Assembly: GCF_020034665.1 (NCBI RefSeq)
Contig: NZ_JAIQDI010000002.1
Span: 2,232,001-2,296,000, forward strand
Origin: Niabella beijingensis
Lineage (GTDB): Bacteria > Bacteroidota > Bacteroidia > Chitinophagales > Chitinophagaceae
Length of the DNA stretch: 64,000 nt
Reading direction: 5' to 3'
Position numbers and translations under genes: made by a program. This document shows positions 7,979 through 38,026 of this stretch, piece after piece. Below the pieces are notes generated by a model, which saw only the letters and a program-made list of their open reading frames with translations, searched no databases and was not told where the DNA came from. The first letter of the stretch is position 1, and each line of letters opens with the position of its first letter.

Positions 7979-10900
7979 TAGAATTTTAATTCAGCAGTGA
8001 AGGTGATTGTCCTGTTCGGAGGGAATGAGCCGTTGTCGATACGACGCAAGGTAGAGGAAGTGCCACTTGTATTTACTTCCGGGTCGTAGCCGATATAATT
8101 TTTCAACAGCAACAGGTTGCTTCCGTTTAACGAAAGTGCCAGTGATTTGAGTTTTGAAGCGGTCATTTTTGCAAGATCAAACGTATATCCGATGGATACT
8201 GCCTTTAAACGCAGGAAGCTTGCATCGTATACAAAACGGTCATTGGGAATGTCATCTTTCGAATCGGTCCTGGGAATATCTGAATCAGGATTACGAATCT
8301 CGTGATACCTGTTTACCATGAGTTCCTGTTGATTATTGAGGTACACTCCTGTCATGTTGAACATGCCACCGGGATAATACATATCGCCGCCAATAGAATA
8401 GTTGAAGAAAACGGACAGAAACGCTTTTTTATAGCGGAATGTGTTTTGCAAACCACCATACAGATCCGGATCGGCATCTCCCAGCATTACCATATCATCG
8501 CTATTCATTAAGCCATCCTTATTTTGGTCAATATAACGCTGACGTCCCGGAACCAGATAAGCTGCCGAAGCCGATACGTACTGCTTGTCTGTTTGATTTT
8601 TGATGATCTCGTCCTGACTTTTCCATACACCACCATATTCAAAACCATAGATAGCATTCAGCGGATAGCCGGTCTGATAACCATTGATCATATATTGCGC
8701 CCCGTAGCTATAGGTGTTGGTAACCACCCTTCCTACCAGGCCGATATCATCCACCATCTGCTGGTTATGTGCTGCGGTAAGGCTGGTAGCCCATCCGAAT
8801 TCGGGCTTCCGTATCACATCATAATTGATGGTCAGCTCAACCCCTTTGTTGGACGTCTTGCCAAAATTCATCAATCTTGAAGAAAATCCCGTTTGCGTAG
8901 GCATCTGTACACTCAGCAGCAAATCCGAGGTCTTGCTCTTATAGGCATCGAGTGTCACTTCGAGCCGTTTTCCAAAGAAAGAAAGATCAATGCCCGCATT
9001 ATAGGTAGTTGTTTTTTCCCATTTCAAACCGGAGTTCGCGATACCCGATGGATAGAATGCAACAGGCTGCGCATCTCCGAATAAATACCCGGATGTGGTT
9101 GAGCTCAGGCGACTGAGCGACTGATAACGGGAAATGGCATCGTTGCCCGATGTACCGGCACTGAGACGGACAGCAAAATCACTCAGGCCGGAGTTTTTCA
9201 TAAAGTTTTCGTTCAGGATATTCCAGCGAAAAGCTGCCGAGGGGAAATACGCCCATTTATTGTTGGCAGCAAAGTTGGAAGCACCGTCCCTGCGCAATGT
9301 GGCGGTCAGGTAATATTTTTGCGCATAGTTATAATTCAGACGGGCAAGGTGCGACAGGCGCGTTTGCAATTCTTTTGCGCCGCTTACATTCAGGTTTTGC
9401 TTATCAGGGATGGCCCCGATATCCCAAAGCGCCGTCTCGTCGCTGTAATACCCGCTGCCACTTATGGAAACCCGGTAGAAATTCAGCATCTGAACAGTAA
9501 AGCCGTACATCGCATCAAAATGATGTCCGCTGCCGAAAGTGTTTTTGTAGGTAATGGTATTTTCGTTCAGAAGATTATCATTCTGGTTGATGCTTTTAGA
9601 AGTGGCGTTGCCCGCCGTGGCCCGGCTGGGCATGGTAGAGGGAACCAAGGCATTGTTGTTGATATCATATTTGGAGTAAGCAACGGAGGAACGCGCCACG
9701 ATATTTTTAACCGGTGTAATGTCTACATATGCCATTGAAGTAAGTGTACCTGTTTGAGTGGTATTCTTTCTCAGGGTAGCGTCAAATAAAGGCAGGTCGG
9801 ATACTCCTCCTGAATAGTTTTGCGAGTTCCAGCTGTTCAAACTGCCATCAGGATTATAAATCGGGACCACAGGAGCTACTGACACAAACGATACGCTCCA
9901 GTTATTATAGGCGCCCAGGTACCGCATGGGCTGCTCCTGTGTACTATTGGAATACGCAATGCGTGCACCAGCCTTCGCATACCTGCCCAGGGTCTGGTCG
10001 AGGTTCAGCCGGAACTGGTATCGCTTGAACTCGCTTCCGAGAATAACGCCGTCAATATTGTCGTACCCCCCGGAAATAAAGAATTTGGTGTTGTTATTCC
10101 CTCCTGAGACGGCCAGTGAATAATTGGCAAATGGCGCGGTGCGGGTAAGGGCATGTTGCCAGTCGGAGCCTTTGCCAAGTGAAAGCGGATCCGGATAGGG
10201 ATAATCTTCGAGCGGCTTGGTTTTATTGGCCGCACTGGCATAATAAAAACGATCGTTGATCAGCTGTGCAAACTCAGTGGCATCCATTAAATCCAGGTAC
10301 CCGGCCATCCTGGCAAAGCCCTGGGATGTCCTTACGGTAAAATCCGTTTTACCATTTTTGTTGATCCCGCTTTTAGTGGTGATGATGATGACTCCGTTGG
10401 CGCCACGGGAACCGTAGATGGCAGTAGAAGATGCATCCTTCAAGACACTGATACTGGCAATATCTGAAGGATTCAGATCATTCAGATTATTGATACCATC
10501 CATTACTCCGTCTACAATATATAAAGGTTCATTGTCGGCCGAAATGGATCTTGTGCCACGTATACGAACGGTTGTGCCGGAACCTGGCGCACCATCCGTG
10601 GACATGAATTCAGCTCCCGCAATTCTTCCCGCAAGCATCTGGTCTACCCGCGGAACGGGAATGTTCTCCAGGTCCTGCATTTTAACAGTGGAAACCGCTC
10701 CGGTAAGGTCGCGTTTTTTTACGCTGCCATAGCCTACAGCCACTACTTCTACCTGCTCAAGATCACCCGTTTTGTTTACCAGTCGCACCAGTAAAGCGCT
10801 TTGATCTTTTTTAAGCGCTACATCTTTCTCTATATAGGTTTCGTAACCTACATAGCTGAAATAAAGGTCATAAGTTCCCTGCTCATTCAGATTGCCCAGG

Positions 10901-20994: not shown

Positions 20995-23169
20995 TCATTC
21001 CAGTACCCTGACGGCTTTCGAGCAGCTTAATTTGCCATCAAAGGAACGCTCGGTAATACGGATAAATACACCATTTCCGTTATCTGTACTGTTATCGATC
21101 TTATGGCTCTTGCTACAAGCCGCCAGCAAAGCAATAGCAGCAACTCCAATACCTAAGCGTGTCAGGCGCGACCCAAAAGCAGGAATCAGAAACAAGAGCA
21201 TTATACTTAATCCGGCTATTTCAACCGTTCCGGGAACAACAAAATCGTATTTCACTTTTTGTGAGGATGCACCAATAGTTTTTGCCGCCTGACGGCCTAT
21301 TTCCTTCCATTGCTTTCCATCTCCGGACGCTTCAATGATATATTCTTTTGTATTTGATTCGTTGTCTACAGTCCAACTTATATTCCATGAGCCGTTTATC
21401 TTATTTGCGGTAATGGTTCTGAAGTTCGTCGATAACGGCTGCGGAAAGCCATCGATAACGGCCTGCGTTTCTGCCGGATAATATTTCATCCGTAACCGCC
21501 AGAGTAATTCTTCAATTGATACCACATTAATATTGGTATCTAATAATGCCTTTGCCCAGGTAACCGGTGTTACCCCCCTTAAAGCTCCGGCATCGGTTGA
21601 AACCGCATCGCTGATATTTCCTCCTGCATCCTTTTTGAAGTAGGACCACGCATGTACTATTGTCCAGTCTATAGTGGGAGTCGGAGACTGATTTGCGGCG
21701 GAATTAATCAAACTGGCAATAACGGCTGGATTACCAGAGTTCGGATACTGATTTAGATCTGCCCACATCTGATACTTTGCGGTAAATACGGGTATATGTT
21801 TACCCTGTTTATTCGTTACCCAATAAATATTACCGCCGCCGGCATTGTAAGGAATATATTGAATCGCTACAATGCCCACAAGGTCATCAATCGTTTCGGC
21901 ATATATCTGGTAGGCTCCCAAAGCTTCAGCACTGCTCAGGCTGTTTCTTGTAATAAAACTGAACACTTTAGTGCCGGTTGCTTTCATTCTTTTATTGACG
22001 ATTTCGGCAAACTCACGTTGTATGGTCACTGCATCCCCATCCCGGGACTGTGCAAAATAATCAGGATACTGGTATCCGCCGCCAAATTCAATCAAATTAC
22101 CCGGAACAGTAGTAGTATTCACAAAGTAATTCCAGGCATCCGGTATCATTTCTGATAAGTTGACCGGACAGTTAGTCCAGTTCATCGGCACGTTATTAAT
22201 ATCGGGATTACCCCAGTATTCGGGTATAAGCGGAAGACTGGTCGCCTGGATCATCATATTATCACCGTCGCTCAGCACAAAAGAATGATAATGCCTACCG
22301 GTTGAAAAATCCAGTGTTCTCGGGTTAATGTTGGTTACCTTAGGCGGTGTCAACTGCTTGGCGCCGGCCGATAACACGGAAAGGTTCACTACCGTAGCAC
22401 CTGTAGTAAACATGCCATATTTGGAACAGGCAACCACTGCCGGTCCTTCATTTTCGTTCCACCCTACAACCGGACTATTGGGCTTCATCCATGACAAAAT
22501 TGTGTTATAAAAATCATCAACGCCCCAATAAACCATACAATTATTGGAGATGGCCATTTCACGCTGACGATAATCATTAGGTGCAATAGTAACCACCATT
22601 TTATTATTTAACGCGCCTTTAATACCATCAAACCAGGCTTGAGTATAGGAGGTTTTTGAATTCAACGGCCTCGCGTCGTACTTTAATGTCAACCCGTGAG
22701 CAATTGCCGTAGATTCCAGTCCGGCTTCTACCAAAATGGCATCGTACATTGAGGCGTATAATGTTGCAAAGTTTACCGAATAATCTCCCTCGGTATACAA
22801 AACATAGCCTTTTACCACGCCTTTGTTTTTAAACCGGTCTACTAAATTCCATACTGTAATATTTCCGTTATCGGCAACCGATGTACGTGCCAGCCACCCG
22901 GAAAGGTAATAATTATAAGCGGCACCCGAAACATTGGTCCACACCAATTCGTTGTTGGTACCTGCATTTACAGCCCTTGCGGCCAAACCCGAAACAGATT
23001 GAACGAGATTTCGCTGTGCAAGATTGGAGGGGGATACTCTTATTATCTGTGTCGGCAGCTTTTGTTCGGGCCACCAGGATTCCTGGCCCTGAGAAAAAGC
23101 TGTTAAAGACAATAGCAATAGACAGATCAATACCTGGCATTTACATAAGCGACCGTTAATCATATACAT
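20995..23169 (-). CDS. GxGYxYP-family putative glycoside hydrolase with unusual C-terminal membrane insertion
   Basis: A 724-residue exported protein (signal peptide 1-28, ending AFSQ). The family signature GGGYQYPD is at about residues 361-368, preceded by RHYHSFVLSDGDNMMIQ. The GxGYxYP family is common in Bacteroidota glycan loci and is predicted to be a glycoside hydrolase, without a well-known substrate. The C-terminus starts like the fibronectin-type domain seen in secreted proteins (TKEYIIEASGDGKQWKEIG), but residues 647-700 insert two hydrophobic helices (AGLSIMLLFLIPAFG and IGVAAIALLAACS) before the domain finishes with VFIRITERSFDGKLSCSKAV. This may anchor the enzyme in a membrane. 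It ends 110 bases before the ROK gene. A second ATG at 23163 is equally possible as start. Confidence 0.85.
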   Translation of the reverse strand: MYMINGRLCKCQVLICLLLLSLTAFSQGQESWWPEQKLPTQIIRVSPSNLAQRNLVQSVSGLAARAVNAGTNNELVWTNVSGAAYNYYLSGWLARTSVADNGNITVWNLVDRFKNKGVVKGYVLYTEGDYSVNFATLYASMYDAILVEAGLESTAIAHGLTLKYDARPLNSKTSYTQAWFDGIKGALNNKMVVTIAPNDYRQREMAISNNCMVYWGVDDFYNTILSWMKPNSPVVGWNENEGPAVVACSKYGMFTTGATVVNLSVLSAGAKQLTPPKVTNINPRTLDFSTGRHYHSFVLSDGDNMMIQATSLPLIPEYWGNPDINNVPMNWTNCPVNLSEMIPDAWNYFVNTTTVPGNLIEFGGGYQYPDYFAQSRDGDAVTIQREFAEIVNKRMKATGTKVFSFITRNSLSSAEALGAYQIYAETIDDLVGIVAIQYIPYNAGGGNIYWVTNKQGKHIPVFTAKYQMWADLNQYPNSGNPAVIASLINSAANQSPTPTIDWTIVHAWSYFKKDAGGNISDAVSTDAGALRGVTPVTWAKALLDTNINVVSIEELLWRLRMKYYPAETQAVIDGFPQPLSTNFRTITANKINGSWNISWTVDNESNTKEYIIEASGDGKQWKEIGRQAAKTIGASSQKVKYDFVVPGTVEIAGLSIMLLFLIPAFGSRLTRLGIGVAAIALLAACSKSHKIDNSTDNGNGVFIRITERSFDGKLSCSKAVRVLE

Positions 23170-23189: not shown

Positions 23190-25484
23190 TTAGCTGCTTT
23201 TATCGGTTGAAAAAGAGTAAGGATAATCGTCGGCTGCAGTGCCCTTTTGCCTGTTCGGCACATTACTCATCTGCAACCGGAACGTGCCGCCTTTCATAAT
23301 GTCGAAATGATCGATCCAGTTTTTATCATAGGATTTGCCATTGAAAGCAGCCGTATTAATATATAGATTTTCACTGCTGTTATTGGGCGCACTGATGGTA
23401 AAGGTCTTTCCGTTCTCTAAAAACAACGTCGCTTTCTTAAATAAAGGCGTTCCCAAAACATACTGCGTTGTAGCCGGGCATACCGGGTAAAAACCCAATG
23501 CAGAAAAAACATACCAGGCAGATGTTTGTCCATTATCTTCATCTCCGCAATAGCCATCAGGTGTAGGTTTATAAAGCCGCTTCATCACCTCTCTTATACG
23601 GAATTGTGATTTCCAGGGGGCCCCGGCGTAATTGTACAGATAGGTCATGTGCTGGATCGGCTGGTTTCCATGCGCATACTGTCCCATATTCATGATCTGC
23701 ATTTCTCTGATCTCATGTATTACTTTTCCATAGTAGCTTTCATCAAAAACAGGCGGAAGTGTAAAAACAGAATCCAGCATCTGCATAAACATTTTCTCAC
23801 CTCCCATAAGCCGGATCAATCCGCTGATATCATGAAAAACGCTCCAGGAGTAATGCCAGCTGTTTCCTTCGGTAAATGCATCACCCCATTTAAACGGGTT
23901 AAAAGGGTATTGAAAACTGCCGTCAGCATTACGCCCGCGCATTAGTTTGGTGGTATCGTCAAAAAGGTTTTTATAATTGAGTGCTCTTTGACGGTAGAGC
24001 TCAATTTCTTTTTTAGGCCGCTCCAATGTTTTTGCAAGCTGGGCTATAGTGAAATCACTATACGCATATTCCAGGGTGCGGGCTGCACTTTCCCTGATAT
24101 CCACGTCGTAGGGAACATAACCCAGTTTATTATAGTAGGCAGCGCCTTTTCTGCCAACGGCTGTTAAAGGTCCTTCATTATTGGCGCCCTTCAGCATTGC
24201 TTCATATAAGGTCTGAATATCATATCCCCTCAGTCCTTTCAGATAGGCATCTGCGACAACAGCAGCAGAATTATTTCCGATCATAGTATTACGATACCCG
24301 GGGCTGGACCATTCGGGTAACCAGCCACCTTCTTTATAAGCGTTTATCAGCCCTTCCTGCATTTCTTTATTGATAGAGGGGAACATTAAATTGAGGAAAG
24401 GATACAATGCCCGGAAAGTGTCCCAAAAGCCTGTTCCGGCAAATAAATACCCGGGAACCACCTGACCGTTATAAGGACTATAATGAACCGGTTGCCCCTT
24501 TGCGTCTATTTCATAATGTTTTTGCGGAAATTGCAGCATCCGGTATAAACAGGAGTAAAAAGTTCTTATATCATCTACCTGGCCACCCTGCACCGATATC
24601 CTGCTTAGCTTGTCATTCCATACTTTTTTAGCATGGGCTGCAACCTGCTCCAGGTTATAGCTGGATAATTCCCGCTTTAGGGTTATTTCAGCCTGTTCAA
24701 AACTGATAAAGGAAGAAGCTACTTTTAAATGAACCTGCTGGTCCTTTTTTGTTTTAAATCCTATTACGGCGCCGGCCTGTTCTGATGTAATGGTTTTATT
24801 TGTCTTATCCAATTGTTTGCCATTCCAGGTATAAGAAACATCAAAATCGTGGTCAACATATATAACAAAATAATTTTTGAAATTGTCCTGAATGCCCAGT
24901 TTACTTTTCCGGCTGTACCCGATAATCTTTCTTTCTTCCGGTATGATCTGAACAAAAGCTCCGCCGTCCATAGCGTCGATAGCGATATAAGCACTGTCAG
25001 ATTGGGGAAAGGTTAGTCTGAATATGGCAGCACGTTCGGTAGGCGCAATCTCTGTGGTTACATTATAGTCTGCCAGGTACACCTTATAATAATAAGGTGT
25101 TGCGGTCTCGGCCTTGTGTGAAAACCAACTCCCCCTGTCTTCTTTAAATCTCAAAGAACCCACAAACGGCATGATCGCAAACTGTCCGTAATCGTTCATC
25201 CAGGGTGAGGGCTGATGTGTCTGCTTAAATCCGACGATTTTTTCAGCATCGTAAGTATAGGCCCAGCCATCACCCATTTTCCCTGTCTGAGGCGTCCATA
25301 AATGCATCCCCCATGGCATGCCAATTGCCGGATACGTATTACCATTTGACAAAGCATGTTTGGATGCCGTACCCATCAGTGTATTCACATAACCGACAGG
25401 CTCTGTTATTTTTTCATTTATATTCTGACTTTTACCCCCCAGGGCAAAAAGAGATATAAACAGGATTGATAAACTGAATCTCAT
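23190..25484 (-). CDS. GH92 family alpha-mannosidase
   Basis: A 764-residue exported exo-acting alpha-mannosidase of glycoside hydrolase family 92, calcium-dependent enzymes that remove mannose from N-glycans, yeast mannan or similar glycans. Signal peptide at 1-19. The N-terminal beta-sandwich has VNTLMGTASKHALSNGNTYPA and the catalytic (alpha/alpha)6 domain ends with GDEDNGQTSAWYVFSALGFYP (about 647-667), which holds the conserved catalytic acidic residues. Linkage specificity cannot be told from sequence alone. It is 25 bases after the FAD oxidoreductase gene, in the same operon. Confidence 0.95.
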   Translation of the reverse strand: MRFSLSILFISLFALGGKSQNINEKITEPVGYVNTLMGTASKHALSNGNTYPAIGMPWGMHLWTPQTGKMGDGWAYTYDAEKIVGFKQTHQPSPWMNDYGQFAIMPFVGSLRFKEDRGSWFSHKAETATPYYYKVYLADYNVTTEIAPTERAAIFRLTFPQSDSAYIAIDAMDGGAFVQIIPEERKIIGYSRKSKLGIQDNFKNYFVIYVDHDFDVSYTWNGKQLDKTNKTITSEQAGAVIGFKTKKDQQVHLKVASSFISFEQAEITLKRELSSYNLEQVAAHAKKVWNDKLSRISVQGGQVDDIRTFYSCLYRMLQFPQKHYEIDAKGQPVHYSPYNGQVVPGYLFAGTGFWDTFRALYPFLNLMFPSINKEMQEGLINAYKEGGWLPEWSSPGYRNTMIGNNSAAVVADAYLKGLRGYDIQTLYEAMLKGANNEGPLTAVGRKGAAYYNKLGYVPYDVDIRESAARTLEYAYSDFTIAQLAKTLERPKKEIELYRQRALNYKNLFDDTTKLMRGRNADGSFQYPFNPFKWGDAFTEGNSWHYSWSVFHDISGLIRLMGGEKMFMQMLDSVFTLPPVFDESYYGKVIHEIREMQIMNMGQYAHGNQPIQHMTYLYNYAGAPWKSQFRIREVMKRLYKPTPDGYCGDEDNGQTSAWYVFSALGFYPVCPATTQYVLGTPLFKKATLFLENGKTFTISAPNNSSENLYINTAAFNGKSYDKNWIDHFDIMKGGTFRLQMSNVPNRQKGTAADDYPYSFSTDKSS

Positions 25485-25509: not shown

Positions 25510-27507
25510 TTATTTTTTTGGCACAAATAATACGGCATCAGCCATAACGGTACCGTCAGCATTTTTATTGGTAATAGCTACATAAGCATTATTGCCTTTC
25601 TTTAAATCAAAATCGCCCAGATGTACCCATTCTCCTGTTGTTTGGCCTTTTACTGAAACATCAGCCATATTGATCAATACTTCCGTTCTTTTAGTTCCAT
25701 TGTTGATTATATGGGTAATTGTAGAAGTGGGATTGGCAATACGATTCACCACATACGTATAAATGGCATATTTTCCACTGTGTGAAATGGAAGGCTTGAA
25801 TCGAACCTCATTCAACTGGCTGTTATTGGTACAATAAAGGCCAGAAAGACCGTAGGTACCACCCTTTTTAACCTGCCACTGACCGATTTTTTCGATATGT
25901 AAAGAGTCCGAATCGTCAACCAACACTTCCACTACGCTGTTATCCACCAATGGATTTGTCTTTAACATCTTCTGAACTTCTTTTATATCCACTTGCTGTA
26001 CCGGTTTGTGCCCGTCTATAGCTATTGACGCGGCCACAGCCGAAGATTGTCCCAACACCATGAAAACAGGTTCCATCCTGATGGAGCCGTAGGCAATATG
26101 CGTAGCCGAGAGACAAACCGGAACCAATAAGTTTTTGCATTCAGTTATTTTGGGAGTAATAGAACGATATGAAATGGGGTAAGGGGGAAATCCGCCCACC
26201 TGTACGTCTCCTTCATTTTTTACCATCCCATTTGCGATAACTCTCTGACAATTGTGTGAATCCATGTTATAAGCTGCCATTCCGATAGCATCCTCTGCAA
26301 CGGCATCACCTACACAATTATGCTGTGTCATTACATACGCCCCTATCATCCTCCTGGCCTCTCTTACATATAACTGTGGCGAGAAATGACCATTCTCAAC
26401 ATACTCGTCTTTAGGATAACCCCATTTCAACATTTCCTTTCTCATATCTTCGGGAACGCGCGGATCATGACCATAGAAATAAAGCAATCCTTTGGTATAT
26501 AGTTCATGATCTTTAATGATTTGTTTTCGTTCTTCATAAGATCCGTCAGGATAATTATAGTTCGCTCCGATCATGTCTGTAGATAAGCCGCCGGTACTGT
26601 TGATATCGGTCTTGTTATTGGGCATGGGTTTAAAATGTTTCCACCAGATTGTTTCAGGGAGCTGTACGGGAAAAAAGCGGGTTAATAATTCATAGCGCGA
26701 AGGATCATAGCCCTCTGGCTTCGTTACGGGGACCATATTCTGCGGATCGTTGGTGAGACATAAACGGAAACAATAAGCCTGCACTTTTTTATCGCCGGTA
26801 CCCCTGGGTTGCAGCGGCTCACCGCTAACGCCCCATAAAAGGCCACTTTTGGGATCTCCAGGAATTTTATAGGGATCTACTCCATCAGGAAACTGATGAT
26901 AGATACTTTTTGCCTCCGCTAACTGAACGCCATTCAGTGTTTCATTATACTGTGCATTACCTTCACGGCCAATTGTGTAACTCACTCCGGCTTTGGCCAT
27001 CAGGTCTCCTTCATAAGAACAGTCCAAATACATCTTAGCGGAGATCGTTATATTGGTAGCAGGGTCAGGAGCCAATGCGTTTTCGAGAATAATCGAACGG
27101 ATTGAACCGTCTTTTTTATCAACTGAATGCAGCCGGGTATCATAAGCCACTTTTATAGCTCCTTCCCTGATATAATCTAAAAAGACGGCTTCGGCTATCT
27201 TCGGTTCAAAAATCCATTGCTCGAATTTTCCGTAATACCGCCCCACACGCCTGTAAAAATTATGAGCCAGGCCCGTGATGGCATATTTATTTCCTATATC
27301 TGTCAAACCTAAACCACCTGAAGTCATACCCCCCAAACGCCGGGTAGGTTCAATCAAAATCACCGACTTCCCCATTTTTTTTGCCGTATAGGCAGCAATA
27401 ACACCGGCAGAAGTTCCACCATAAACACAAATATCATAAGTTGACTGAGCGGATACCAGCAAACGTGATCCTGTAAGTAAAAGGAAAAGAATTATTTTAT
27501 TAAACAT
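25510..27507 (-). CDS. Exported FAD-dependent oxidoreductase with golvesin-like C-terminal domain (third of three)
   Basis: A 665-residue flavoenzyme of the FAD_oxidored type (PF12831-like). Signal peptide 1-20 (LLVSAQ), then the Rossmann FAD motif VYGGTSAGVIAA, RRLGGMTSGGLGLTD, LDCSYEGDLMAKAGVSYTIG, SYEERKQIIKD and YVREARRMIGAYVM. Residues about 530-664 form a separate beta-sandwich (GLSGLYCTNNSQLNEVRF, then GEWVHLGDFDLKKGNNAYV) like the golvesin/xanthan-lyase C-terminal domain, probably carbohydrate binding. Substrate is unknown; other members are often misnamed xanthan lyase. It lies between the SGNH hydrolase and GH92 genes, 25-37 bases from each. Confidence 0.9.
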   Translation of the reverse strand: MFNKIILFLLLTGSRLLVSAQSTYDICVYGGTSAGVIAAYTAKKMGKSVILIEPTRRLGGMTSGGLGLTDIGNKYAITGLAHNFYRRVGRYYGKFEQWIFEPKIAEAVFLDYIREGAIKVAYDTRLHSVDKKDGSIRSIILENALAPDPATNITISAKMYLDCSYEGDLMAKAGVSYTIGREGNAQYNETLNGVQLAEAKSIYHQFPDGVDPYKIPGDPKSGLLWGVSGEPLQPRGTGDKKVQAYCFRLCLTNDPQNMVPVTKPEGYDPSRYELLTRFFPVQLPETIWWKHFKPMPNNKTDINSTGGLSTDMIGANYNYPDGSYEERKQIIKDHELYTKGLLYFYGHDPRVPEDMRKEMLKWGYPKDEYVENGHFSPQLYVREARRMIGAYVMTQHNCVGDAVAEDAIGMAAYNMDSHNCQRVIANGMVKNEGDVQVGGFPPYPISYRSITPKITECKNLLVPVCLSATHIAYGSIRMEPVFMVLGQSSAVAASIAIDGHKPVQQVDIKEVQKMLKTNPLVDNSVVEVLVDDSDSLHIEKIGQWQVKKGGTYGLSGLYCTNNSQLNEVRFKPSISHSGKYAIYTYVVNRIANPTSTITHIINNGTKRTEVLINMADVSVKGQTTGEWVHLGDFDLKKGNNAYVAITNKNADGTVMADAVLFVPKK

Positions 27508-27544: not shown

Positions 27545-28270
27545 TCAGGAAAGGACTTTATTAATATAAGCGGGGTAACTCTCTTTGTCTATGCTGCCGT
27601 CGCCTTTGGTAATGCTATCGCCAAAACAAACAACTCTTTGCACCGGGAGGTGATTATATAAACAATACTGAGCTATTGTTACACCCATAAGGCAATATCC
27701 GTCTCTTGTTGGATGAACACCGTCCGTTTTGCCTGTATTAGCCTCATTTCTTAAAAGGGAATCAGCGCCCAAACCTATTTTGCCTACTTTTTCAAATAAG
27801 GCCCCCATATCTAAAAATGAGGTTTGTTTTTTCCGGGCTATTTCTTTTATAGCATCGTTAACTGCTTTTCGGCGCCCCTCTGCGCCTTCTGGTTCAAAAA
27901 AAGAAGCCGGATGACGGGTAAGCAGGTAAGGCTCATAAAAAGGTAAAATGGTCATGAGCAATAACTGGCTGCCGCTCTTCAAAATCCCATCTGACAGTAA
28001 CTCGAGATTTTCTTTATACTTCGGCAATGGCACATACTTGCCATGGTTCATATCATTGGTTCCTATCATCATCACTACCAGGCTGGGGCGATGCCTGAGA
28101 CAATCGGGCTCAATACGTTGTAACAGGTTTTTAGTATTATTTCCAGCTATTCCTGCATTGACAATTAACTCCGGCTTTTCTACAGGATTATCACCTGCCT
28201 TCACCTTCCCGGCTCCCAATAGCCCCAGTGAAAGCATAGATGCATTACGGATAAAATCTTTTCTTTCCAT
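27545..28270 (-). CDS. SGNH/GDSL hydrolase with circularly permuted motif order
   Basis: A 241-residue esterase-type hydrolase with a Tat-like N-terminus (ERKDFIRNASM, Arg-Lys instead of Arg-Arg). All four SGNH blocks are present but rotated. Block II (VNAGIAGNN, Gly40) and block III (GTNDM, Asn72) come first, block V (DGVHPT, Asp183 and His186) next, and block I with the nucleophile (VVCFGDSITKG, Ser219) is at the C-terminus, which ends SYPAYINKVLS. In normal enzymes that last helix connects straight to the strand that here begins the mature protein (PELIVNAGI). All catalytic residues are present, so activity is plausible. Likely removes acyl groups (for example acetyl) from the glycan. The gene is flanked by two FAD oxidoreductase genes in one operon. 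Confidence 0.88.
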   Translation of the reverse strand: MERKDFIRNASMLSLGLLGAGKVKAGDNPVEKPELIVNAGIAGNNTKNLLQRIEPDCLRHRPSLVVMMIGTNDMNHGKYVPLPKYKENLELLSDGILKSGSQLLLMTILPFYEPYLLTRHPASFFEPEGAEGRRKAVNDAIKEIARKKQTSFLDMGALFEKVGKIGLGADSLLRNEANTGKTDGVHPTRDGYCLMGVTIAQYCLYNHLPVQRVVCFGDSITKGDGSIDKESYPAYINKVLS

Positions 28271-28301: not shown

Positions 28302-30209
28302 TCAATTCTTCCTTAGCTTTTGATAAATATGTGTTAATACCTCACCGCGGGTTTTCCCGTTTGCCCAATCTGCCAATTCCAATCCCGATTTTTCTTCCCA
28401 GTTTTTTATAGCAGCAGTTGTTGCTACATCTTTTAAGCGGGCATTCCAATCTGTCACAAATCCTCTAAGACCTAAATACTGTAATGCTTTAAAATCAGGA
28501 TTGGAAGGACCGGCATCTTTAAAGCAAATCAATACGGCCCGCTGATCGATTAACCTGTCCTGTAACACTTGCCGGTCAATATCCTGAACCGTTTTTTTAT
28601 GATCGATGGCAACAGCAGCAGCCACGCCCGCAGCCTGGCCCAATGCCATCCAGCAAGGCTCCATTCGCAATGTAGCCAGTCCTAAATGGGTAGCGGATAC
28701 CGGAACCGGCGCTAACAGGTTATCGACATTAGGAGGAACGATCACTTCGTAAGGAACCGTGTATGGCGCCGCAGAGTAACTCAGGAATCCCTCAAGGGTA
28801 TTCTGCCCCTTTTCTCTTTTACGTGTGGCATGTGAGTCGATACCATAATGACCTCCGGTAATACTTGTTTTATGCAGTGGTGGCCGGCTGCCTTTTTGTA
28901 CGGGGAGCGCATCTCCTGCTTTATACACATAAACACCTTTCATTCTTCTGCCCTCGCGTACATACACCTGCCTTGGAAAATTTCCATTATCTGTATACTC
29001 ATCGGCAGCAAGTCCCCATAAAGCACATGAATCTCTAAACCAGGCCGGTAAAGCCGGGTCATTCTGACCAAAATACAAAAGCCCCAACGTATAATCCTTC
29101 AATCTTTCAGCAAACTTGTCGCGCCATTGCCAGTCAGATGTCGGCCATGCCCAGTTCTCCTCGGGCAGATCTGTTGAAACCAATGAGCGATGCTGATTAT
29201 TGGCATCCGTTTTATTATTGGGCAATACAACCTTATTCACCAGGCGTTGCATTCCCTGTGGTATATTCTTACCTTCAGGCGGCAGGCCTTTTAGCAAACG
29301 TTGTTGATTCCGCTCTTTTTCAGTTACTGACTGTAATTCCCATTCTACGCCTGAATGCAGCCCGGACCGTACATCATCAACAATCGATGCATACTCTTCC
29401 CTGTTGTAATTGGCGGGCCTGGGTATCGGTACTTTTTTTTGGTTGTCAGTTGTCAGACACAACCTGTAGTTATAAGCCTGTATGGCATTGTCGCCCAGGT
29501 TGGAACTACCCGCCTCCTGCCCGTCTTTCTCCCACAACTTATAAACGATTCCCGCATAGGGTTCGTTGTATTCTGTTTTACCTTCACGGCCTAATGAAAA
29601 AGGCACACCGGCAGCCGCAATCAGGTCTCCTTCATAAGTGGCATCAATAAACACTTTTCCGTTATATGTTTCTGAAGTATTGTTTTCCCTGTTCAATACC
29701 GTAATGGCCTTTATTTGATTTCTTTCCATTTGAGCATACTCAGGATAAGCATCAAACTGCCGGTTTATTTTCACCGTTACCAGAGGTTGTTCCTCCAGCA
29801 TCTGGTGCATTATTTTTTCGGCGACGGAGGGCTCAAAATGATATCCGCCCTTTGCATCCCTTACCTGTGGTGAATTGCTACCATAAACGCTCTCGTAATG
29901 CTTATTGATACGGGTCACAAACTCCAAGAATAATCCTCCCGTAGCTGACCGCGTAATTATATCGGTTGCACCCAGGCCATTTGCGGGAAGACCGCCGATA
30001 TGTTTTGTACGTTCAAGGATAACAGATCTTTTCCCTTCGCGGGCGGCTGCAATGGCGCACATAATACCGCTGGGTGTGCCACTCACTATAACCAGGTCGT
30101 ACATAGAAACAGCCTTGGTATCCTGGGTAATAGCCATGTTAACCAATAGCTGCATAGCAAGCAGGCAAAACAACCGTTTTATTTTTGCACCTTTAAAACC
30201 TATACACAT
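28302..30209 (-). CDS. Exported FAD-dependent oxidoreductase with SLH-like C-terminus (second of three)
   Basis: A 635-residue flavoenzyme related to the two neighbours. An N-terminal hydrophobic signal (residues 12-28) is followed by the FAD motif [61 protein letters not shown] and [13 protein letters not shown]. The C-terminal 75 residues (PDFKALQYLGLRGFVTDW ... LADWANGKTRGEVLTHIYQ) resemble an S-layer-homology repeat, which usually tethers proteins to surface glycans, but only one repeat is seen. Start ATG at 30209 gives an eleven-residue basic n-region. Reaction and substrate unknown; probably oxidises a sugar hydroxyl in the periplasm. The LacI gene lies 28 bases upstream. Confidence 0.9.
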   Translation of the reverse strand: MCIGFKGAKIKRLFCLLAMQLLVNMAITQDTKAVSMYDLVIVSGTPSGIMCAIAAAREGKRSVILERTKHIGGLPANGLGATDIITRSATGGLFLEFVTRINKHYESVYGSNSPQVRDAKGGYHFEPSVAEKIMHQMLEEQPLVTVKINRQFDAYPEYAQMERNQIKAITVLNRENNTSETYNGKVFIDATYEGDLIAAAGVPFSLGREGKTEYNEPYAGIVYKLWEKDGQEAGSSNLGDNAIQAYNYRLCLTTDNQKKVPIPRPANYNREEYASIVDDVRSGLHSGVEWELQSVTEKERNQQRLLKGLPPEGKNIPQGMQRLVNKVVLPNNKTDANNQHRSLVSTDLPEENWAWPTSDWQWRDKFAERLKDYTLGLLYFGQNDPALPAWFRDSCALWGLAADEYTDNGNFPRQVYVREGRRMKGVYVYKAGDALPVQKGSRPPLHKTSITGGHYGIDSHATRKREKGQNTLEGFLSYSAAPYTVPYEVIVPPNVDNLLAPVPVSATHLGLATLRMEPCWMALGQAAGVAAAVAIDHKKTVQDIDRQVLQDRLIDQRAVLICFKDAGPSNPDFKALQYLGLRGFVTDWNARLKDVATTAAIKNWEEKSGLELADWANGKTRGEVLTHIYQKLRKN

Positions 30210-30237: not shown

Positions 30238-31236
30238 TTAAACAGATTCGCGAAATATTATCTGTGGCTCCATTAATACCATTCTTTTTTCAACTTTATC
30301 GATAACGCCCAGCTCTCCCATTAAAATGCGAACAGCAGTTTGCGCAATCGAGGCAACAGGCTGCCTGATCGCTGTTACAGATGGAGATAACAGATCAAAC
30401 ATAATATTGTCATCAAAGCATAAAACCGAAAGCTGTTCCGGAACTCTTAGTTGCAAATTCCTGATAGCCTTCAGGCCACTTATACCTAAATAGTTGGTTG
30501 TAAAAAGAATGGCATCCGGAACATGTAACGCTAAAAAGTCCTGTATCAAACGAATCGTGTCAATATCAGCACTGTTATAGGGCACACGCAAAACAAGATC
30601 AGCCGCCAGCTTACTTCTTGTTAATGTATCAACAAAGGCTGTTTCCCTGTCTTTCATTTGCACCAGGTCGATCCCTACCGTTATCAGACCAATTTTCTTT
30701 TTTCCTTTTTTAACGAGATAGTCTGCGCCCGACACAATACCTTTATAATTATCAACCAAAACATAGGGATAATGCAGCTCCGGCAGGTAACGGTCTATTT
30801 GCACAACCGGTGTTTTATTAATATCAATATCACGCAAAGACAATTCCATCTCCGCAGTAGGCGTTACTAAAAAACCGTCAACCCTTTGGTGTTTCATTAG
30901 CTGCACCAGGTCTGCTTCTTTTTTATGATGATTCTTCAAACTGCAATACACGACTTTATAATCAAATGTGTTGAGTTCTTCTTCAATTGTTCGGGCAAGA
31001 CTTGAAAAAAACTGGTTGGCAATATCCTCTACTATCAGGCCTATCACCTTTGTCTGACCTGTTCTAAGCGCCACAGCAATAGTATTAGGCCTATAAGAAA
31101 GTTCCCGCGCCTTTTGCAGTATCCGGTTGCTCACTGCTTTACTGATCCGCATCTCCTCCGCCCGACCATTCAATACAAAAGAGACCGTAGACGGCGAAGT
31201 GCCCACTAATTTTGCAAAGGTTTTCAGTGAGATCAT
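30238..31236 (-). CDS. LacI family transcriptional regulator (inside glycan locus)
   Basis: A 332-residue LacI/GalR-type regulator. The N-terminal helix-turn-helix (SLKTFAKLVGTSPSTVSFVL, with hinge YRPNTIAVALRTG at about 50-62) precedes a periplasmic-binding-like effector domain (VIGLIVEDIANQFF, DGFLVTP, VPEQLSVLCFDD). It lies within the operon between two FAD oxidoreductase genes with 28 and 161 bases of spacing. The larger upstream gap may carry its own promoter. It probably senses a sugar produced by the locus, adding a second control layer to the sigma/FecR pair. Confidence 0.95.
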   Translation of the reverse strand: MISLKTFAKLVGTSPSTVSFVLNGRAEEMRISKAVSNRILQKARELSYRPNTIAVALRTGQTKVIGLIVEDIANQFFSSLARTIEEELNTFDYKVVYCSLKNHHKKEADLVQLMKHQRVDGFLVTPTAEMELSLRDIDINKTPVVQIDRYLPELHYPYVLVDNYKGIVSGADYLVKKGKKKIGLITVGIDLVQMKDRETAFVDTLTRSKLAADLVLRVPYNSADIDTIRLIQDFLALHVPDAILFTTNYLGISGLKAIRNLQLRVPEQLSVLCFDDNIMFDLLSPSVTAIRQPVASIAQTAVRILMGELGVIDKVEKRMVLMEPQIIFRESV

Positions 31237-31397: not shown

Positions 31398-33062
31398 CTA
31401 TTTTTCCTTTATATCGTCCAGGCGTTTAATTTTTGATTCTGTATGCACGTTTCCTTTTTGGAGCAACTGCTTTAACTTACTGTAGGGAACATCCTGGACA
31501 GAAGTATTTTCAGCTATCGCCAGTTTGGCTGCAGCTCCCGCTGCCTGTCCGATAATCATATACTGAGGTTCCATTCTTAAAGAAGCGCAGACCACGTGAC
31601 TCATAGAAATACATACAGTAACCAAAAGATTAGATACCTCTTCCTTCCGGGGAACCAGCGAACGATAGGGTATCTGGTAAGGGATATGTTTCATTCTTTC
31701 CGGCTCGGTGCGCTGCAAACCACCCTCGTACTTCAATATGCCTTTTTCTGTAGCATAGCCCTGAACATTATGCACATCCAGCCCGTACGATCCCAATCCG
31801 ATGGGATCAGGCTTCTGAAGTTCTGATACCACATCTTTCTGAATCATCACATAAGCCCCCAGCATTCTGCGGCCTTCTCTTACATAAAGTTCATAAGGCC
31901 AGTTATCATTATCCTTAAACTCATCTTTTGACAGGCCCCATTTACTAAACTCATTACGGTATGCTTGCGGTAATCTTTTATCATTGGCAAGGAAGTATAC
32001 ATAGCCCTTTACGTAGTTGATATGATCTTTCCATATTTCTGCCCGTTTTTTGTAGGAACCATCAGGATAATCCCAGTTACCGCCAACATAATCGGCCGTA
32101 TTCAGATCGACTTTATGATTCGGTATTTTCCCAATACCCGGGAACATTTTCCTGGCGGCAGAGTCGGGCCCATAATTATCGATTGTCCTTAAAACATGAT
32201 CCAGTAATTCTTCGTACCGTGCGGGCTGATAACGCTCCGGTCTGGGAAAAGGCACTCTATTTTCCGGAGTATTGGTCAATACCAACCTGAAGTTATAGGC
32301 CTGTGTTTTTTTATCTCCTGATCCCACCGGGCCGGGTGGGTCAGGCTGTATTCCCGGCAACAGTTTCCCGTTACTGCCGTAGGCTTTGCGTGAGCCGGAT
32401 CCTTCACGGATACCGGCTGAATATTCGTTGTACGCACTTTGGGCCTCGCGTCCAAATGTATAAGAAACCCCGGAAAAAGCCATTAAATCGCCTTCGTAAG
32501 TGGCATCAATAAAAACCTTTCCATGATAGATCGAACCATCTTCCATAACGATAGTTTCGATCTTGTTCTGCTTTTTAACAACACCGCCTTTTTCTTTAAG
32601 CCTTTTCCTGTATAATACAGTAACATTGGCCTCTTTAATCATCTCGTTCAATACTTTTTCGGCAACATGTGGCTCCGGAAACCAGCCAATGGAATCCCTG
32701 GTGTACACCTGGTAGTTATAGTATTTTCCGAGGCGTTTATATAACTCAAGCGGGTATCCTCCTATCACTGTTCTGCGACCGATATCAGTAGCCGACAGTC
32801 CACCTGTTACCATACCGCCAATGTGGCTCTTGGGTTCCAGCAGTACTACCTTCAGGCCTTCCCGGGCAGCCGATATAGCAGCCATTACCCCAGATGCGGT
32901 GCCTCCGTACACCACTACATCATAGTTAGCAGCTTTGGCGGGATCTATAGGCCCCGGAGATCTAAAGGATAAAATAAAAATGCAAAACAGGAAAACAGCG
33001 GCGATCGATGTTTTCGAGGCCCTTAGTTTTATTGTCTGTAATATCAACGCTGATTGTGTCAT
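31398..33062 (-). CDS. Exported FAD-dependent oxidoreductase, single-domain (first of three)
   Basis: A 554-residue member of the same FAD_oxidored family, without an added C-terminal module. A signal sequence (hydrophobic 21-34) precedes the FAD motif [20 protein letters not shown], then [57 protein letters not shown] and [15 protein letters not shown]. It starts 10 bases after the susD stop, so it is the first enzyme gene of the operon. The three paralogues differ mainly in C-terminal modules. Substrate unknown; no Gfo/Idh/MocA oxidoreductase or DUF1080-type keto-glycoside hydrolase is visible nearby. Confidence 0.9.
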
Positions 33063-33072
33063 TTGAATGATC

Positions 33073-34773
33073 TTAATAATTAGGATTCTGTTTAAAATTG
33101 TCTTTATTAGTAGATAGATCTATCTCCGATTGAGGAATCGGGAAAAGGTAATTTTTTGAAGGATCAAACCGGGTGCTTGTATTAACGATATCGGTATTAG
33201 ATGGCGGCCTTGTAAGCTCTAAAAAATATTCAAACTTACCGGTTCTCGCCAGGTCAAACCACCTTTGAAACTCAAAACATAGTTCCCTTGCCCGTTCCAT
33301 CAGAATTTCGTTGATCGTAATATCACCCGCGGTGTAATTGTTAAAACCGGGTGTTTTATCGGGGGTAACCGGTGTACCGTTCGCATCTAATCCACGGGCC
33401 CTCTGGCGTACCCCGTTAATAGCTTCGAGTCCTTCCTCGGAAATAGTACCGTTCTTTTTGTAATCAGCTTCTGCGAACATCAGCAATACGTCGGCAAAGC
33501 GAAGAACGATCACATTATTCGGGCAGTTGGAATACAAATACGCGGAGGTTTCTCTCCAGCTATTGCCCCACCTGTATTTGGTAACCCCGCAACGTCCTAA
33601 AACCGTTTGATTGTATCTGTCCGGGTTATAAGTTGACCAGATATAGGTGAGTGAGGATGGCGCATTGTTGGCAATATTTACTAGCGAGTCGGTAAGGTTC
33701 CAAACCCTCCTTTTATCATAGTCGGGAGCTGTAAGCGAGGGCTTGTAGTACTTATAAAACTTGGGAACATATACCAGGTTACACTGACCTATCAATGAAT
33801 TGGTATGATAGGCAGGATTTCCGTTAATAGTCCCCCCGCTTGAGATCATCCCATATTCTTTCGTCCATTGAGTACCGTAAGGCACAATGGCACTGAATTG
33901 CAACTCGAACAAGGACTCTGTATTTACATTTTTATTTTCGATTTTAAAGACATCGCCATATACCGGCAGCAATGCAGCCCCGCTGTTATCTTTTACATCC
34001 TTTAGCAATTCCCAGGCCCTGGTATAGAGTTCCGTTGTACTTTCAGAAATGGCTTGGTAACCCGGTACTTTATTGGCTTCTTTTGCTGATGCCATAGTAA
34101 GATAAACCTTACCCAGCAATGCTTTTGCAGCCCAGGCGTTGGCATGGCCATTGTTGGTTTTGGCAGTAGGTAATACATTGGGAGCCGAGGCAAAATCGAG
34201 GTCCGAACGAATGAGTTTATAAACTTCGCTTACCGGGCTGCGCGGCAACCCATAATCGAAATCTCCTGTTATCGGGAGCTCAATCAAAGGGATCTCACCA
34301 AATGCCTGAACCAGCCTGAAGTAAACAAATGCCCGGATAAATTTTGCCTCACCTATAATAATATTTCGCTCCGCTTCTGTAAGTACACTAAGTTTTGAAG
34401 CCGCATCAATCAAAATATTTGCCCTCGCAACAATCTGGTAATGCCTGATCCAATATTCATAAATAGCACCTTCACTTACCGAAAAGCTATGCCTGTCGAA
34501 GTTGAAGCGTACCCCTGAAGTGCCTTTGAACATCGCTTCGTCTGTTCCCAGCTCCGTCATAAACAAGGGCGTGTTTGTATAAACGCCGAACAGATCTTTG
34601 GCGGATGAATACATTCCTACGATACCTGCATCAAGCGTTACTTTATCTACAAAAAAATTGTTGGCCGTATATTGTGTTTGCGGTTCCTCTTCCAGGAACT
34701 TACTACAAGACGATACAAGCAGTATAAGCGCCGTCATCACCGGCATCCAAACTTTAATATTATCTGATTTCAT
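33073..34773 (-). CDS. SusD/RagB family nutrient-binding lipoprotein (second SusCD pair)
   Basis: Surface lipoprotein partner of the SusC at 34793-38026. From ATG 34773 the lipobox is LILLVSSC at about residues 16-23, then [19 protein letters not shown]. SusD helices are visible: [40 protein letters not shown] and [21 protein letters not shown]. An in-frame ATG at 34848 would start inside susC and push the signal peptide inward, so it is rejected. A start at 34782 is possible. Gap to susC is 19 bases. Confidence 0.95.
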
Positions 34774-34792
34774 ATGTAACATGTTAAAATCG

Positions 34793-37700
34793 TTAAAACT
34801 GTATTTTAAGACCGGCTGAATAGAATTTAGATCTGGGATAAGAGGCATAATCCAGCGAAGGCATCAGGTCCCCAAATCCTCCCTGTCTTGTATTTACTTC
34901 AGGATCGTAACCACTGTATTTGGTTTGAATCCACAGGTTTTTGCCACTGACGAATAGGGTCACACCCCTGATACCAGAGCGTTTCAGCCAGGAACTACCC
35001 AGGTCATAGGACAGTGTGATATCGCTCAATCTGATAAAAGACCCGTCTTCTATCCAATCCGAAAGCATTAATAACTCTTCACTGCTTCCCGGCATGCGGT
35101 AGGTATTGCCGGGATTACCCGCTTCGAACAATGCCCCTGAAGACATATCGTACAGCGACGGCCGCCAGGCACCGGCAATGCCTTTGGTCATATTACCGGT
35201 ATTTCTGCCGGATTCCAGCGAAACACGATTAGCATTATAGATCTTATTACCATAGCTGTACTGGAACACCATATTTAAGCTGAATCCGCGATACGACCAG
35301 TAGTTGGTGATACCCCCCATAAAGGTAGGCTGGCCCAATCCGAGTATTACCCTGTCTTCGGTATTAATAATGCCATCGCCATTCTGATCAATAAAGCGCC
35401 GCGTGCCGGGTCTGATACTATTAATATCCTGCCCGTTAATAACCGTTAATCCCGATGCGAGAATTTCGTCCCTCGATTGCCAGATACCGTTGGTCTGGTA
35501 CCCAAACCACTGGCCGATGGGTTGTCCGTTGCGTATAATAGCGGTTGTACCAATACCAGGTACTACACCTGGGTCAAGTCCAAGGTCTGCGCCTATTTCT
35601 ATTGCTTTCGACCGGTTAAATCCAATATTGGCGTCGATGTTCCAGGTAAATTTTGTTTTCTTGAATATAGCTGCATTGATGCTGGCTTCTACCCCGCTGT
35701 TTCGAATAGAGCCGAGGTTCGTCCAGGTAGATCGATAACCACTATAACCCGGTGTTATTTTTTGTATCAGCAGATCCCTGGTTGTTTTGCTGTACCATTC
35801 AACTGTCAGATTCAGATTATTATCAAAAAGCCCCAGATCGAGCCCTGTGTTTACCTGTGTGGTAGTTTCCCATTTCAGGGAAGTGTTCTCAGGTCTTTCT
35901 ACAATCACACCATAGTCGGGTGTTTTACCATCCATTGGCGAAAAATAAGTTCCGATAGTAGAAAGCGTAAGATAAGACGGGATGGAAGTATTACCACTCT
36001 GACCGATACTTGCTCTTAGCTTAAGATTGCTTACGGAGCGAAGATCTTTCATAAAATTTTCATCAGATATACGCCAGGCCAGTGCTGCAGAAGGAAAATA
36101 GGCCCATTTATTATCGCGGCTGAATCGCGAGGAGCCATCTGCCCTGAAAGTTGCCGTAGCCAGATATTTACCTTTATAAGCATACTCTAACCGGCCCAAG
36201 AAAGACGCCATGCTCCATTGGGTAATATTGTAAGTTGGTATAATGGGTACTTTACCATTTTGCAGGCCATAAACACCCAGCAGCTCCACATCGTAGTCCT
36301 GATTCTCAGCTGTAACCAGGTTTAGTTTGCTTTGTTCAAATGTAGCGCCGGCTACGCCATTAAAGCTGTGGTCTTTTCCTATACGGCCTTTATAATACAA
36401 CAGGTTTTCATTCATGAACCGGTTGGTACTACCTCTTGACAAGTAAGCCCTGCCGTTAAACCGGGAACCGGCAGATGTAAATTTGGGATAATACGCATCA
36501 GTATTAACGCTATTGCTGGTAAAATTTCCCGTAGTTCTGAAGCTGAAGTTTTTGGAGATCGTCCAATCCAACGCCAGCCGCGTCAACCAATCTGCTACCG
36601 ATTTTTTATTGGTTATATTTTTCGCCAAAGAATAAGGATTGGTGGTAATAAAGCCTTCTGCATCCGCATTATCTTCCTCATCTGTAAATGTTAAGGGTTG
36701 TACCGGAGGTTTAGCTAGCATACTCGATATGATAGCATTGGAAGTCATACCTCCGTTTAACGAATTAGCGAGGAAGCCGTTCGTTTCGCTTTTTGTATAG
36801 GCAATATTGGTGCTGATATTGATACCCTGTGCCAGTTTTTGCTGGAAATTAAACCTTCCGTTATATCTTCTGTAACCACTATATACTACCAGCCCTCCCT
36901 GGTCGAGGTACCCTCCCAAAAATGAGAACTTGGTATCTTTTGTGCCACCGGTCATATTGATCCTGTAGTCTTGTGTAGTACTGTTCTGAAACATTGCTCT
37001 TTGCCAGTCTGTATTAATACTATCAGGGCTCGCATAACTTTGCCAGTTCGCATAGGTTTGATCTAATGCGACTCCCCAGAAATTACCCGGAGTACCTAAG
37101 GGACTGTCGCGGAAATAAGTATATCCCGGCTGCACAGAGGCAGGTTTGTCGGGATCGTTCGCATCTGCCGGCGTAAAAAGATAACCGGTAGCCAGAAACC
37201 TGGCATGTGCATATTCCGGGGCATTGAGTACTCCAAACATATGACCAGGTTTTTGAAATGCCATATTAGCATATAACTCCAGCCTTGTTTTACCGGCTTT
37301 CCCGCTTTTGGTGGTAATCAAAATAACACCATTAGCTCCGCGGGCACCGTACATAGCAGTTCCGGATGCATCTTTCAAAATATCAACGGATTCAATATCG
37401 CCCGGGTTAAGATTATTCATATCATCCTGAAACACGCCGTCAACAACAAATAAAGGAGTGGTGCCACCGCTGATAGAGCTGGCGCCCCTGATGCGGATCG
37501 TATTCTCAGATCCGGGGGTTCCGTCGTTTTGAGTAATCTGAACGCCTGCAGCTTTTCCTTTGAGCGCGTCAGCCAGAGATAACAATGTTCTGTCAGACAG
37601 GGCTTCGGTAGCTACAGAAGACACTGAGCCTGTGAGGTCTCTTTTACGGGCCTTACTATACCCGATCACTACAATATCGTCGAGCGCATTCTTTACCGGT

Positions 37701-38026
37701 TTCATGCGGATAAGCAGGCTGTTTTTTTCATTTGCTAAAACGAAATAGCTGGTCAAAGAATCAGGTTGAAAGCCCACATGATCGAAATAAATATTATACC
37801 GCTGCTTTACGTTCAGGTTCTGAAGCAGGAAGCTTCCCTGCATATCGGCCACAATACCTTTTTTCTCTTTTGTTGATATATTTTCGATAGTGATCGTTGT
37901 ACTGGAGAGTACTTCTCCCGACTCGGAAAGCACTTTTCCTGATACATTAACAGATTGGGCAAGTAGTAAATGGCCGGAACAACTTAAAAATACAGGCAAT
38001 AACAATCGTGAGGCAAATCGTCTCAT
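34793..38026 (-). CDS. SusC/RagA family TonB-linked outer-membrane transporter (second SusCD pair)
   Basis: 1077-residue TonB-dependent barrel. Signal peptide 1-23 (HLLLAQS), carboxypeptidase-D-like domain (about 25-115), IVVIGYSKARKRDLTGSVSS, plug motifs KAAGVQITQNDGTPGSENT and ILKDASGTAMYGARGANGV, and a barrel ending SAGLKIQF. It is the import channel of the large locus; the enzyme set suggests a mannose-containing, esterified glycan. Regulation is likely by the sigma/FecR pair just upstream, and the leader contains a hairpin and an AT-rich palindrome. Confidence 0.95.
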   Translation of the reverse strand: MRRFASRLLLPVFLSCSGHLLLAQSVNVSGKVLSESGEVLSSTTITIENISTKEKKGIVADMQGSFLLQNLNVKQRYNIYFDHVGFQPDSLTSYFVLANEKNSLLIRMKPVKNALDDIVVIGYSKARKRDLTGSVSSVATEALSDRTLLSLADALKGKAAGVQITQNDGTPGSENTIRIRGASSISGGTTPLFVVDGVFQDDMNNLNPGDIESVDILKDASGTAMYGARGANGVILITTKSGKAGKTRLELYANMAFQKPGHMFGVLNAPEYAHARFLATGYLFTPADANDPDKPASVQPGYTYFRDSPLGTPGNFWGVALDQTYANWQSYASPDSINTDWQRAMFQNSTTQDYRINMTGGTKDTKFSFLGGYLDQGGLVVYSGYRRYNGRFNFQQKLAQGINISTNIAYTKSETNGFLANSLNGGMTSNAIISSMLAKPPVQPLTFTDEEDNADAEGFITTNPYSLAKNITNKKSVADWLTRLALDWTISKNFSFRTTGNFTSNSVNTDAYYPKFTSAGSRFNGRAYLSRGSTNRFMNENLLYYKGRIGKDHSFNGVAGATFEQSKLNLVTAENQDYDVELLGVYGLQNGKVPIIPTYNITQWSMASFLGRLEYAYKGKYLATATFRADGSSRFSRDNKWAYFPSAALAWRISDENFMKDLRSVSNLKLRASIGQSGNTSIPSYLTLSTIGTYFSPMDGKTPDYGVIVERPENTSLKWETTTQVNTGLDLGLFDNNLNLTVEWYSKTTRDLLIQKITPGYSGYRSTWTNLGSIRNSGVEASINAAIFKKTKFTWNIDANIGFNRSKAIEIGADLGLDPGVVPGIGTTAIIRNGQPIGQWFGYQTNGIWQSRDEILASGLTVINGQDINSIRPGTRRFIDQNGDGIINTEDRVILGLGQPTFMGGITNYWSYRGFSLNMVFQYSYGNKIYNANRVSLESGRNTGNMTKGIAGAWRPSLYDMSSGALFEAGNPGNTYRMPGSSEELLMLSDWIEDGSFIRLSDITLSYDLGSSWLKRSGIRGVTLFVSGKNLWIQTKYSGYDPEVNTRQGGFGDLMPSLDYASYPRSKFYSAGLKIQF

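Follow-up and report, generated by a model that had tools for sequence, protein, structure and literature searches.

A circularly permuted SGNH hydrolase of Niabella beijingensis and related proteins with the block order G-N-H-S

The gene, its block order and its neighborhood

The window analyzed here is a stretch of 64,000 nt from Niabella beijingensis. On its minus strand, positions 27545 to 28270 hold an ORF of 241 aa plus a stop codon, the product of which has four blocks of the SGNH/GDSL superfamily (PF13472): I with Ser, II with Gly, III with Asn, and V with DxxH. In the superfamily block I stands ahead of block II, whereas in the window protein it comes after block V. The blocks run II (Gly40), III (Asn72), V (Asp183/His186), and I (Ser219), and the order is G-N-H-S instead of the usual S-G-N-H. 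In canonical SGNH proteins, the block I helix runs into the block II strand. The coordinates, strand, length, and named residues given in the original prediction were all correct, including N38 and G40 in NAGIAGNNT, N72 in GTNDM, D183 and H186 in DGVHPT, S219 in GDSIT, and the stretch SYPAYINKVL near the C-terminus. The features are given below; conservation refers to the best 120 of 448 homologues.

20995..23169, minus strand: GxGYxYP putative glycoside hydrolase (Pfam)
23190..25484, minus strand: GH92 glycoside hydrolase (Pfam)
25510..27507, minus strand: FAD-dependent oxidoreductase (PF12831) with a Golvesin C-terminal domain, the type that best matches the FAD gene flanking the permuted gene in most loci (Pfam, locus comparison)
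27545..28270, minus strand: circularly permuted (G-N-H-S) SGNH hydrolase gene (ORF, PF13472, homologues, rotation test)
27551..27577, minus strand: helix YPAYINKVL after block I, aa 232-240, final chain element (DSSP of the model)
27602..27637, minus strand: C-terminal block I, RVVCFGDSITKG, aa 212-223, nucleophile Ser219 (sequence, conservation, model, rotation, covariation)
27707..27724, minus strand: block V, DGVHPT, aa 183-188, Asp183 and His186 (D183, G184, H186, P187, and T188 in 120/120)
27908..27916, minus strand: R119-H120-P121, conserved motif beyond the SGNH blocks (R119 and H120 in 120/120)
28046..28069, minus strand: block III, MIGTNDMN, aa 68-75, oxyanion Asn72 (G70, T71, N72, and D73 in 120/120)
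28133..28165, minus strand: block II, IVNAGIAGNNT, aa 36-46, oxyanion Gly40 (N38 and G40 in 120/120)
28193..28270, minus strand: putative export signal at the N-terminus, about aa 1-26, with a Tat-like motif in its RK form (sequence, patterns in relatives)
28302..30209, minus strand: second FAD-dependent oxidoreductase (PF12831; Pfam)
30238..31236, minus strand: LacI-family regulator (Pfam)
31398..33062, minus strand: third FAD-dependent oxidoreductase (PF12831; Pfam)
33073..38026, minus strand: SusD (33073-34848) and SusC (34793-38026), outer-membrane glycan uptake pair (Pfam)

The PF13472 profile (Lipase_GDSL_2) matched the window protein in two stretches with 77.9 bits (cut-off 32.9), and the best stretch aligned residues 35-192 with profile positions 35-176. 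Nineteen PF13472 matches were found in the window genome, of which 15 start at profile position 1-2, two at position 25 (their ORFs have a readable block I), and the two permuted copies at 32 and 35. Because of its G-N-H-S order, the gene is filed as a permuted SGNH branch, not as a canonical member. No match was found in the defence library.

The gene is uninterrupted in the window, as originally described, and its homologues in 59 loci are likewise uninterrupted. It lies 31 nt after one PF12831 gene and 37 nt ahead of another, gaps that leave no space for a hidden upstream block I, and the pattern G[DN]S[IL]TxG had 0 matches in the 500 nt upstream of the 59 homologous loci. The short gaps and the upstream scan exclude a sequencing error that conceals a normal block I upstream, a possibility that the original prediction had raised against itself. 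The putative export signal starts with MERKDFI, with R-K rather than R-R. Among the best 120 of 448 homologues, the RR pattern was matched by 46 (60 when it was loosened) and the RK pattern by 47, leaving 27 that matched neither. The signal had been called Tat-like, which holds in part; the RK of the window and the relatives fitting neither pattern depart from it.

The window's cluster also contains a ROK gene. Of the 59 loci of the window's subfamily, 52 encode a homologue of the window's FAD proteins on the strand of the permuted gene and no more than 400 nt away (downstream in 44, upstream in 9), and 7 have none adjacent; SusC or SusD matches occur in 51. The second permuted gene of the window genome has GH88-, GH2-, and GH130-type neighbors and no FAD match in 36 kb. 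Among the scanned neighbors of two second-subfamily loci (5/9 and 4/9 ORFs of at least 200 aa), no PF12831 protein was found. The 435-aa and 426-aa genes upstream of second-subfamily members were compared as possible relatives and are not alike. No paper on the function of PF12831 proteins in polysaccharide loci was found in the open-licence literature. The simplest function to unite these gene contexts would be the deacylation of glycans.

Conservation of the order and fit to the canonical fold

In the first homology search, 448 proteins matched among 974 candidates, and the best 120, including the window protein, were used. Block I follows block V in all of these best 120; Ser219 is kept in 119, and Gly40, Asn72, Asp183, and His186 are kept in 120. 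The more distant query L101 had 117 matches (113 permuted, 3 canonical, and 1 truncated protein), and the still more distant query P0230 had 111, of which 85 were new (57 permuted, 27 canonical, and 1 truncated). When the three query sets were pooled, window protein included, 290 of 322 proteins were permuted, 30 canonical, and 2 truncated, a share that is uninformative on abundance among SGNH proteins at large since all three queries were permuted proteins. The original prediction had suggested looking for GDS after DxxH in other proteins, and these 290 are the answer.

By a pattern script, 120 proteins of the first set, 110 of the second, and 55 of the third were labelled as permuted, and five more were added by reading: P0230, which had been flagged BOTH owing to its block II, and the motif variants P0168, P0212, P0248, and P0296. 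P0233 (175 aa), counted as permuted, is a record without blocks II and III. P0227 and P0277 are the proteins truncated before block I. The 30 canonical proteins were assigned by order or close likeness, with P0317 and P0321 being incomplete. The block I nucleophile is Ser in 285 of 286 script-labelled permuted proteins, and in the window's subfamily 21-29 residues separate the catalytic serine from the C-terminus. Block I at both chain ends was found in none of the 322 proteins; in the cases flagged as two-ended, the apparent second motif was a GNST- or GDST-type stretch belonging to block II. In the databases, permuted proteins are named as ordinary GDSL esterases.

Rotation was carried out in all positions for 40 permuted proteins, namely that of the window and 39 random script-labelled ones shorter than 300 aa, against a profile of 26 canonical SGNH domains. 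The best cut was 5-8 residues ahead of block I in 39 of 40, and the median gain over the native order was 40 bits; P0280 was the exception, with a gain of 0.1 bits. For the window protein, the score rose from 103.1 to 144.6 bits and the match was extended from profile positions 41-190 to 2-190. As the control, the 26 canonical domains, each compared with a profile built without it, gained a median of 0 and at most 1.5 bits. Aligning the sequence after rotation, as had been proposed with the original prediction, thus gives a full-length canonical fit.

AlphaFold2 models of members of two subfamilies had pLDDT values of 91 and 96, the best model being that of the Zobellia member P0155. Both contain five strands and align to canonical alpha/beta/alpha chains, and in both the C-terminal block I was modelled with confidence as a strand and a helix. 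These models answer only in part the other objection raised with the original prediction, namely a structure with the C-terminal GDSI outside the active site. The fold alignment to canonical SGNH proteins covers residues 27-207 of the window model, and sequential structure aligners left block I unpartnered. When the window protein was compared out of order with PDB 1yzf, residues 35-112 corresponded to chain positions 41-115 (29.8 bits) and residues 211-234 to positions 2-23 (2.2 bits alone). No solved G-N-H-S member was recognized among 56 PDB profile matches or in the fold lists, although absence from the latter is no exclusion. Five of the 56 alignments were compared, four with block I near the chain start and one without a block I match; in three further rows, the best stretch was block I at the chain start, and no row shows a C-terminal block I. 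One strong covarying pair spans the active site. Pairs between block I and the core make up 8 of the top 60, below their share of ~30% among all pairs, so that the support from covariation comes from single pairs and not from enrichment. Taken together, the order in 290 of 322 proteins, the rotation with its control, the two models, and the covarying pair bear out the original reading of a real circular permutant that has kept its catalytic residues.

Distribution and origin

Scanning named genome records with two peptide patterns from the window's subfamily yielded 70 loci, comprising 59 uninterrupted permuted genes, 9 canonical genes, and 2 broken copies. The 59 permuted loci all belong to Bacteroidota (Chitinophagaceae 21, Sphingobacteriaceae 17, Spirosomataceae 13, other or unranked 8), a restriction that is partly built in because the patterns came from the window's subfamily. 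In the Niabella record L061 (~9722-10147), the permuted gene copy has an internal deletion; in the Niabella record L056 (~9857-10165), it is split into two ORFs, and the FAD neighbor is also fragmented.

The permuted family is sparse. At E 1e-20 and with the own genome included, it was found in 3 of 296 genomes across the phylum, in 12 of 195 genomes of the window's taxonomic family, and in 9 of 59 genomes of relatives; in two carrier genomes, G298 and G465, the matches are partial or interrupted only. According to the source names, mostly of metagenome-assembled genomes, permuted members occur in Bacteroidota, Planctomycetota, Kiritimatiellota, and Victivallales; those outside Bacteroidota are P0228 and P0241 (Planctomycetes), P0215 (Kiritimatiellaeota), and P0263 and P0292 (Victivallales). 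Additional domains are present in some members. Precomputed domains place a C-terminal PF02018 domain in P0256 and P0266, and P0282, P0286-P0289, and P0291 have an N-terminal domain of ~200 residues. This N-terminal domain (up to ~200 residues), in the above proteins as well as in P0293, P0294, and P0296, presumably resembles a carbohydrate-binding module. A Formosa protein of ~676 aa (L058:8615-10642) has a right-handed beta-helix (PF13229) ahead of its permuted SGNH domain.

For the core tree, thinning by identity reduced 285 permuted and 40 canonical cores to 77 rows, of which 8 canonical ones, odd or long, were removed to leave 69. Seven loci of the own genome (2 permuted, 5 canonical) had been left out of the core set by choice, and others for want of a clean motif. 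The 69-row tree needs three changes of block order, and a single clade of all permuted rows was not rejected (AU p 0.33), nor was it after the removal of ten more long-branch rows (p 0.13). The permutation may thus have arisen once or several times. P0295, which has the canonical order and an ordinary block I, shares ERHP and NSGARDGVHPT with the permuted proteins and groups on a long branch with those of the planctomycete type. It may be an unpermuted sister or a reversion.

The original prediction had proposed a tandem duplication followed by trimming as a possible origin, which finds no backing in the 322 proteins, none of which has block I at both ends. A different route would be fusion, in which the original block I of an SGNH protein was lost and replaced, at the 3' end, by that of another SGNH gene. 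The lack of two-ended proteins among the 322, together with the empty upstream regions of the 59 loci, is compatible with such a fusion, and block I by itself is too short for tracing its ancestry. P0295 speaks against it, since core signatures shared with the permuted proteins beside an ordinary block I are as expected if one domain was rearranged. The full-length fit after rotation points the same way, though a fusion would fit too. We regard fusion as unlikely.

Known permuted SGNH proteins and the probable function

Permutation of the SGNH fold as such is known. According to the available portions of the papers, AlgX/AlgJ and WssI, in the O-acetylation of alginate and cellulose, have a circularly permuted SGNH-like fold (PMC4148444, PMC9487903, PMC10302187), and the DHHW family, with the secondary cell wall polysaccharide O-acetyltransferase PatB1 of Bacillus cereus, has a permuted SGNH core (PMC9487903, PMC5697884). 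In all of these permutations, H comes first (PMC9487903, PMC4148444, PMC5697884, PMC10302187). As far as the same portions go, the order is H-S-G-Y in AlgJ/AlgX and H-S-G-D in WssI (H-S-G-N type), in contrast to G-N-H-S in the window protein. Block III of AlgX/AlgJ has a Tyr and block V a DxH motif where the window protein has Asn72 and DGVH, and block I is GTSYS in AlgJ but the canonical GDSIT in the window protein. DHHW/PatB1 also differ, with H-S-G-N and KDS/DXRY/TDHHW against G-N-H-S, GDSIT, and DGVHPT.

An inserted domain is a feature of CE20 esterases, and "permuted" does not appear in the available text of PMC12313940. The G-N-H-S order was not found in the open-licence PubMed Central literature on permuted SGNH/GDSL proteins, which gave only H-first cases; the accessible sections of PMC3779223, PMC5408684, PMC12419801, PMC2848206, PMC12720421, and PMC6385246 make no mention of it. 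The suggestion that no group with this arrangement had been described stands for G-N-H-S within that literature, but not for SGNH permutation in general, of which H-first cases appear in the portions of the papers cited above. By fold and sequence, the nearest solved structures include 1yzf, whose block I is N-terminal, unlike that of the window protein, AlAXEase (7ddy), Axe2 (3w7v), and a Bacteroides sialate O-acetylesterase (6njc, 7pzg). A preference for acetyl groups is our guess, since acetylesterases are among these closest folds.

We put a probability of about 80% on the protein being a genuine SGNH permutant with the usual active site that acts as a periplasmic esterase on O-acyl, likely O-acetyl, groups of glycans. 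The cut would fall within the loop that joins the helix of block I to the strand of block II, and the nucleophile-bearing beta1-alpha1 unit would thus be made last and slot back into the sheet. Ser219, His186, and Asp183 with the oxyanion residues Gly40 and Asn72 would then re-form the usual geometry and support the usual acyl-enzyme mechanism. After export to the periplasm, the enzyme would remove O-acyl, most likely O-acetyl, groups from the glycans of the SusC/SusD polysaccharide utilisation locus, and the PF12831 FAD oxidoreductase may often act alongside it.

One alternative is a domain swap, in which the C-terminal block I would complete the active site of a neighboring subunit and the functional unit would be an oligomer. 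The loop after GDSI (residues 221-230 of the window model) has low confidence, with a mean pLDDT of 66, which makes a swap conceivable, and both covariation and the rotation test are blind to the difference between contacts within and between chains. The single-chain models of two subfamilies nevertheless show the strand and the helix of block I with confidence, and we give a swap only a slim chance.

We consider it slightly more improbable still that the permuted fold has changed its chemistry and that the protein is an acyltransferase like AlgX, AlgJ, WssI, and PatB1, not a hydrolase. The published permuted SGNH proteins, in the available portions of PMC9487903, PMC5697884, PMC4148444, and PMC10302187, are indeed O-acetyltransferases or act in O-acetylation. 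However, no MBOAT was found among the 30 neighboring or nearby proteins compared with Pfam, the window protein, unlike AlgX, has canonical motifs in all four blocks (GDS, Gly, Asn, DxxH), and many neighbors are genes of glycan degradation or uptake. Finally, a frameshift, mis-assembly, or pseudogene mimicking a permutation has practically no chance of being the explanation, for although broken copies exist in the Niabella records L056 and L061, independent genomes refute it, with an uninterrupted permuted gene in 59 loci of named genome records and conserved catalytic residues.

Beyond the single protein, we think it rather probable that G-N-H-S is an undescribed, anciently fixed permutation that marks out a clan of SGNH esterases. 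This clan would span Bacteroidota and Planctomycetota/Kiritimatiellota/Victivallales and would have subfamilies of its own, carbohydrate-binding-like extra domains, a beta-helix fusion, and a serine delivered last. If this is true, the canonical-order P0295 may allow the permutation step to be studied. It is uncommon for a natural circular permutation to set an enzyme's nucleophile apart from the remainder of the fold. Since hundreds of proteins have kept this one, a serine supplied from the C-terminus seems to be tolerated by the SGNH active site. Permuted proteins can seem to have no nucleophile because their profile match begins at block II, and their catalytic competence may thus be misjudged. 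SusC and SusD with a permuted SGNH protein and a PF12831 FAD oxidoreductase form a recognizable, recurrent type of polysaccharide locus, on which no paper came up in the literature searched. While permuted SGNH proteins of the H-first kind were already known, the G-N-H-S order seems to be a so far undescribed route to a common enzyme fold.
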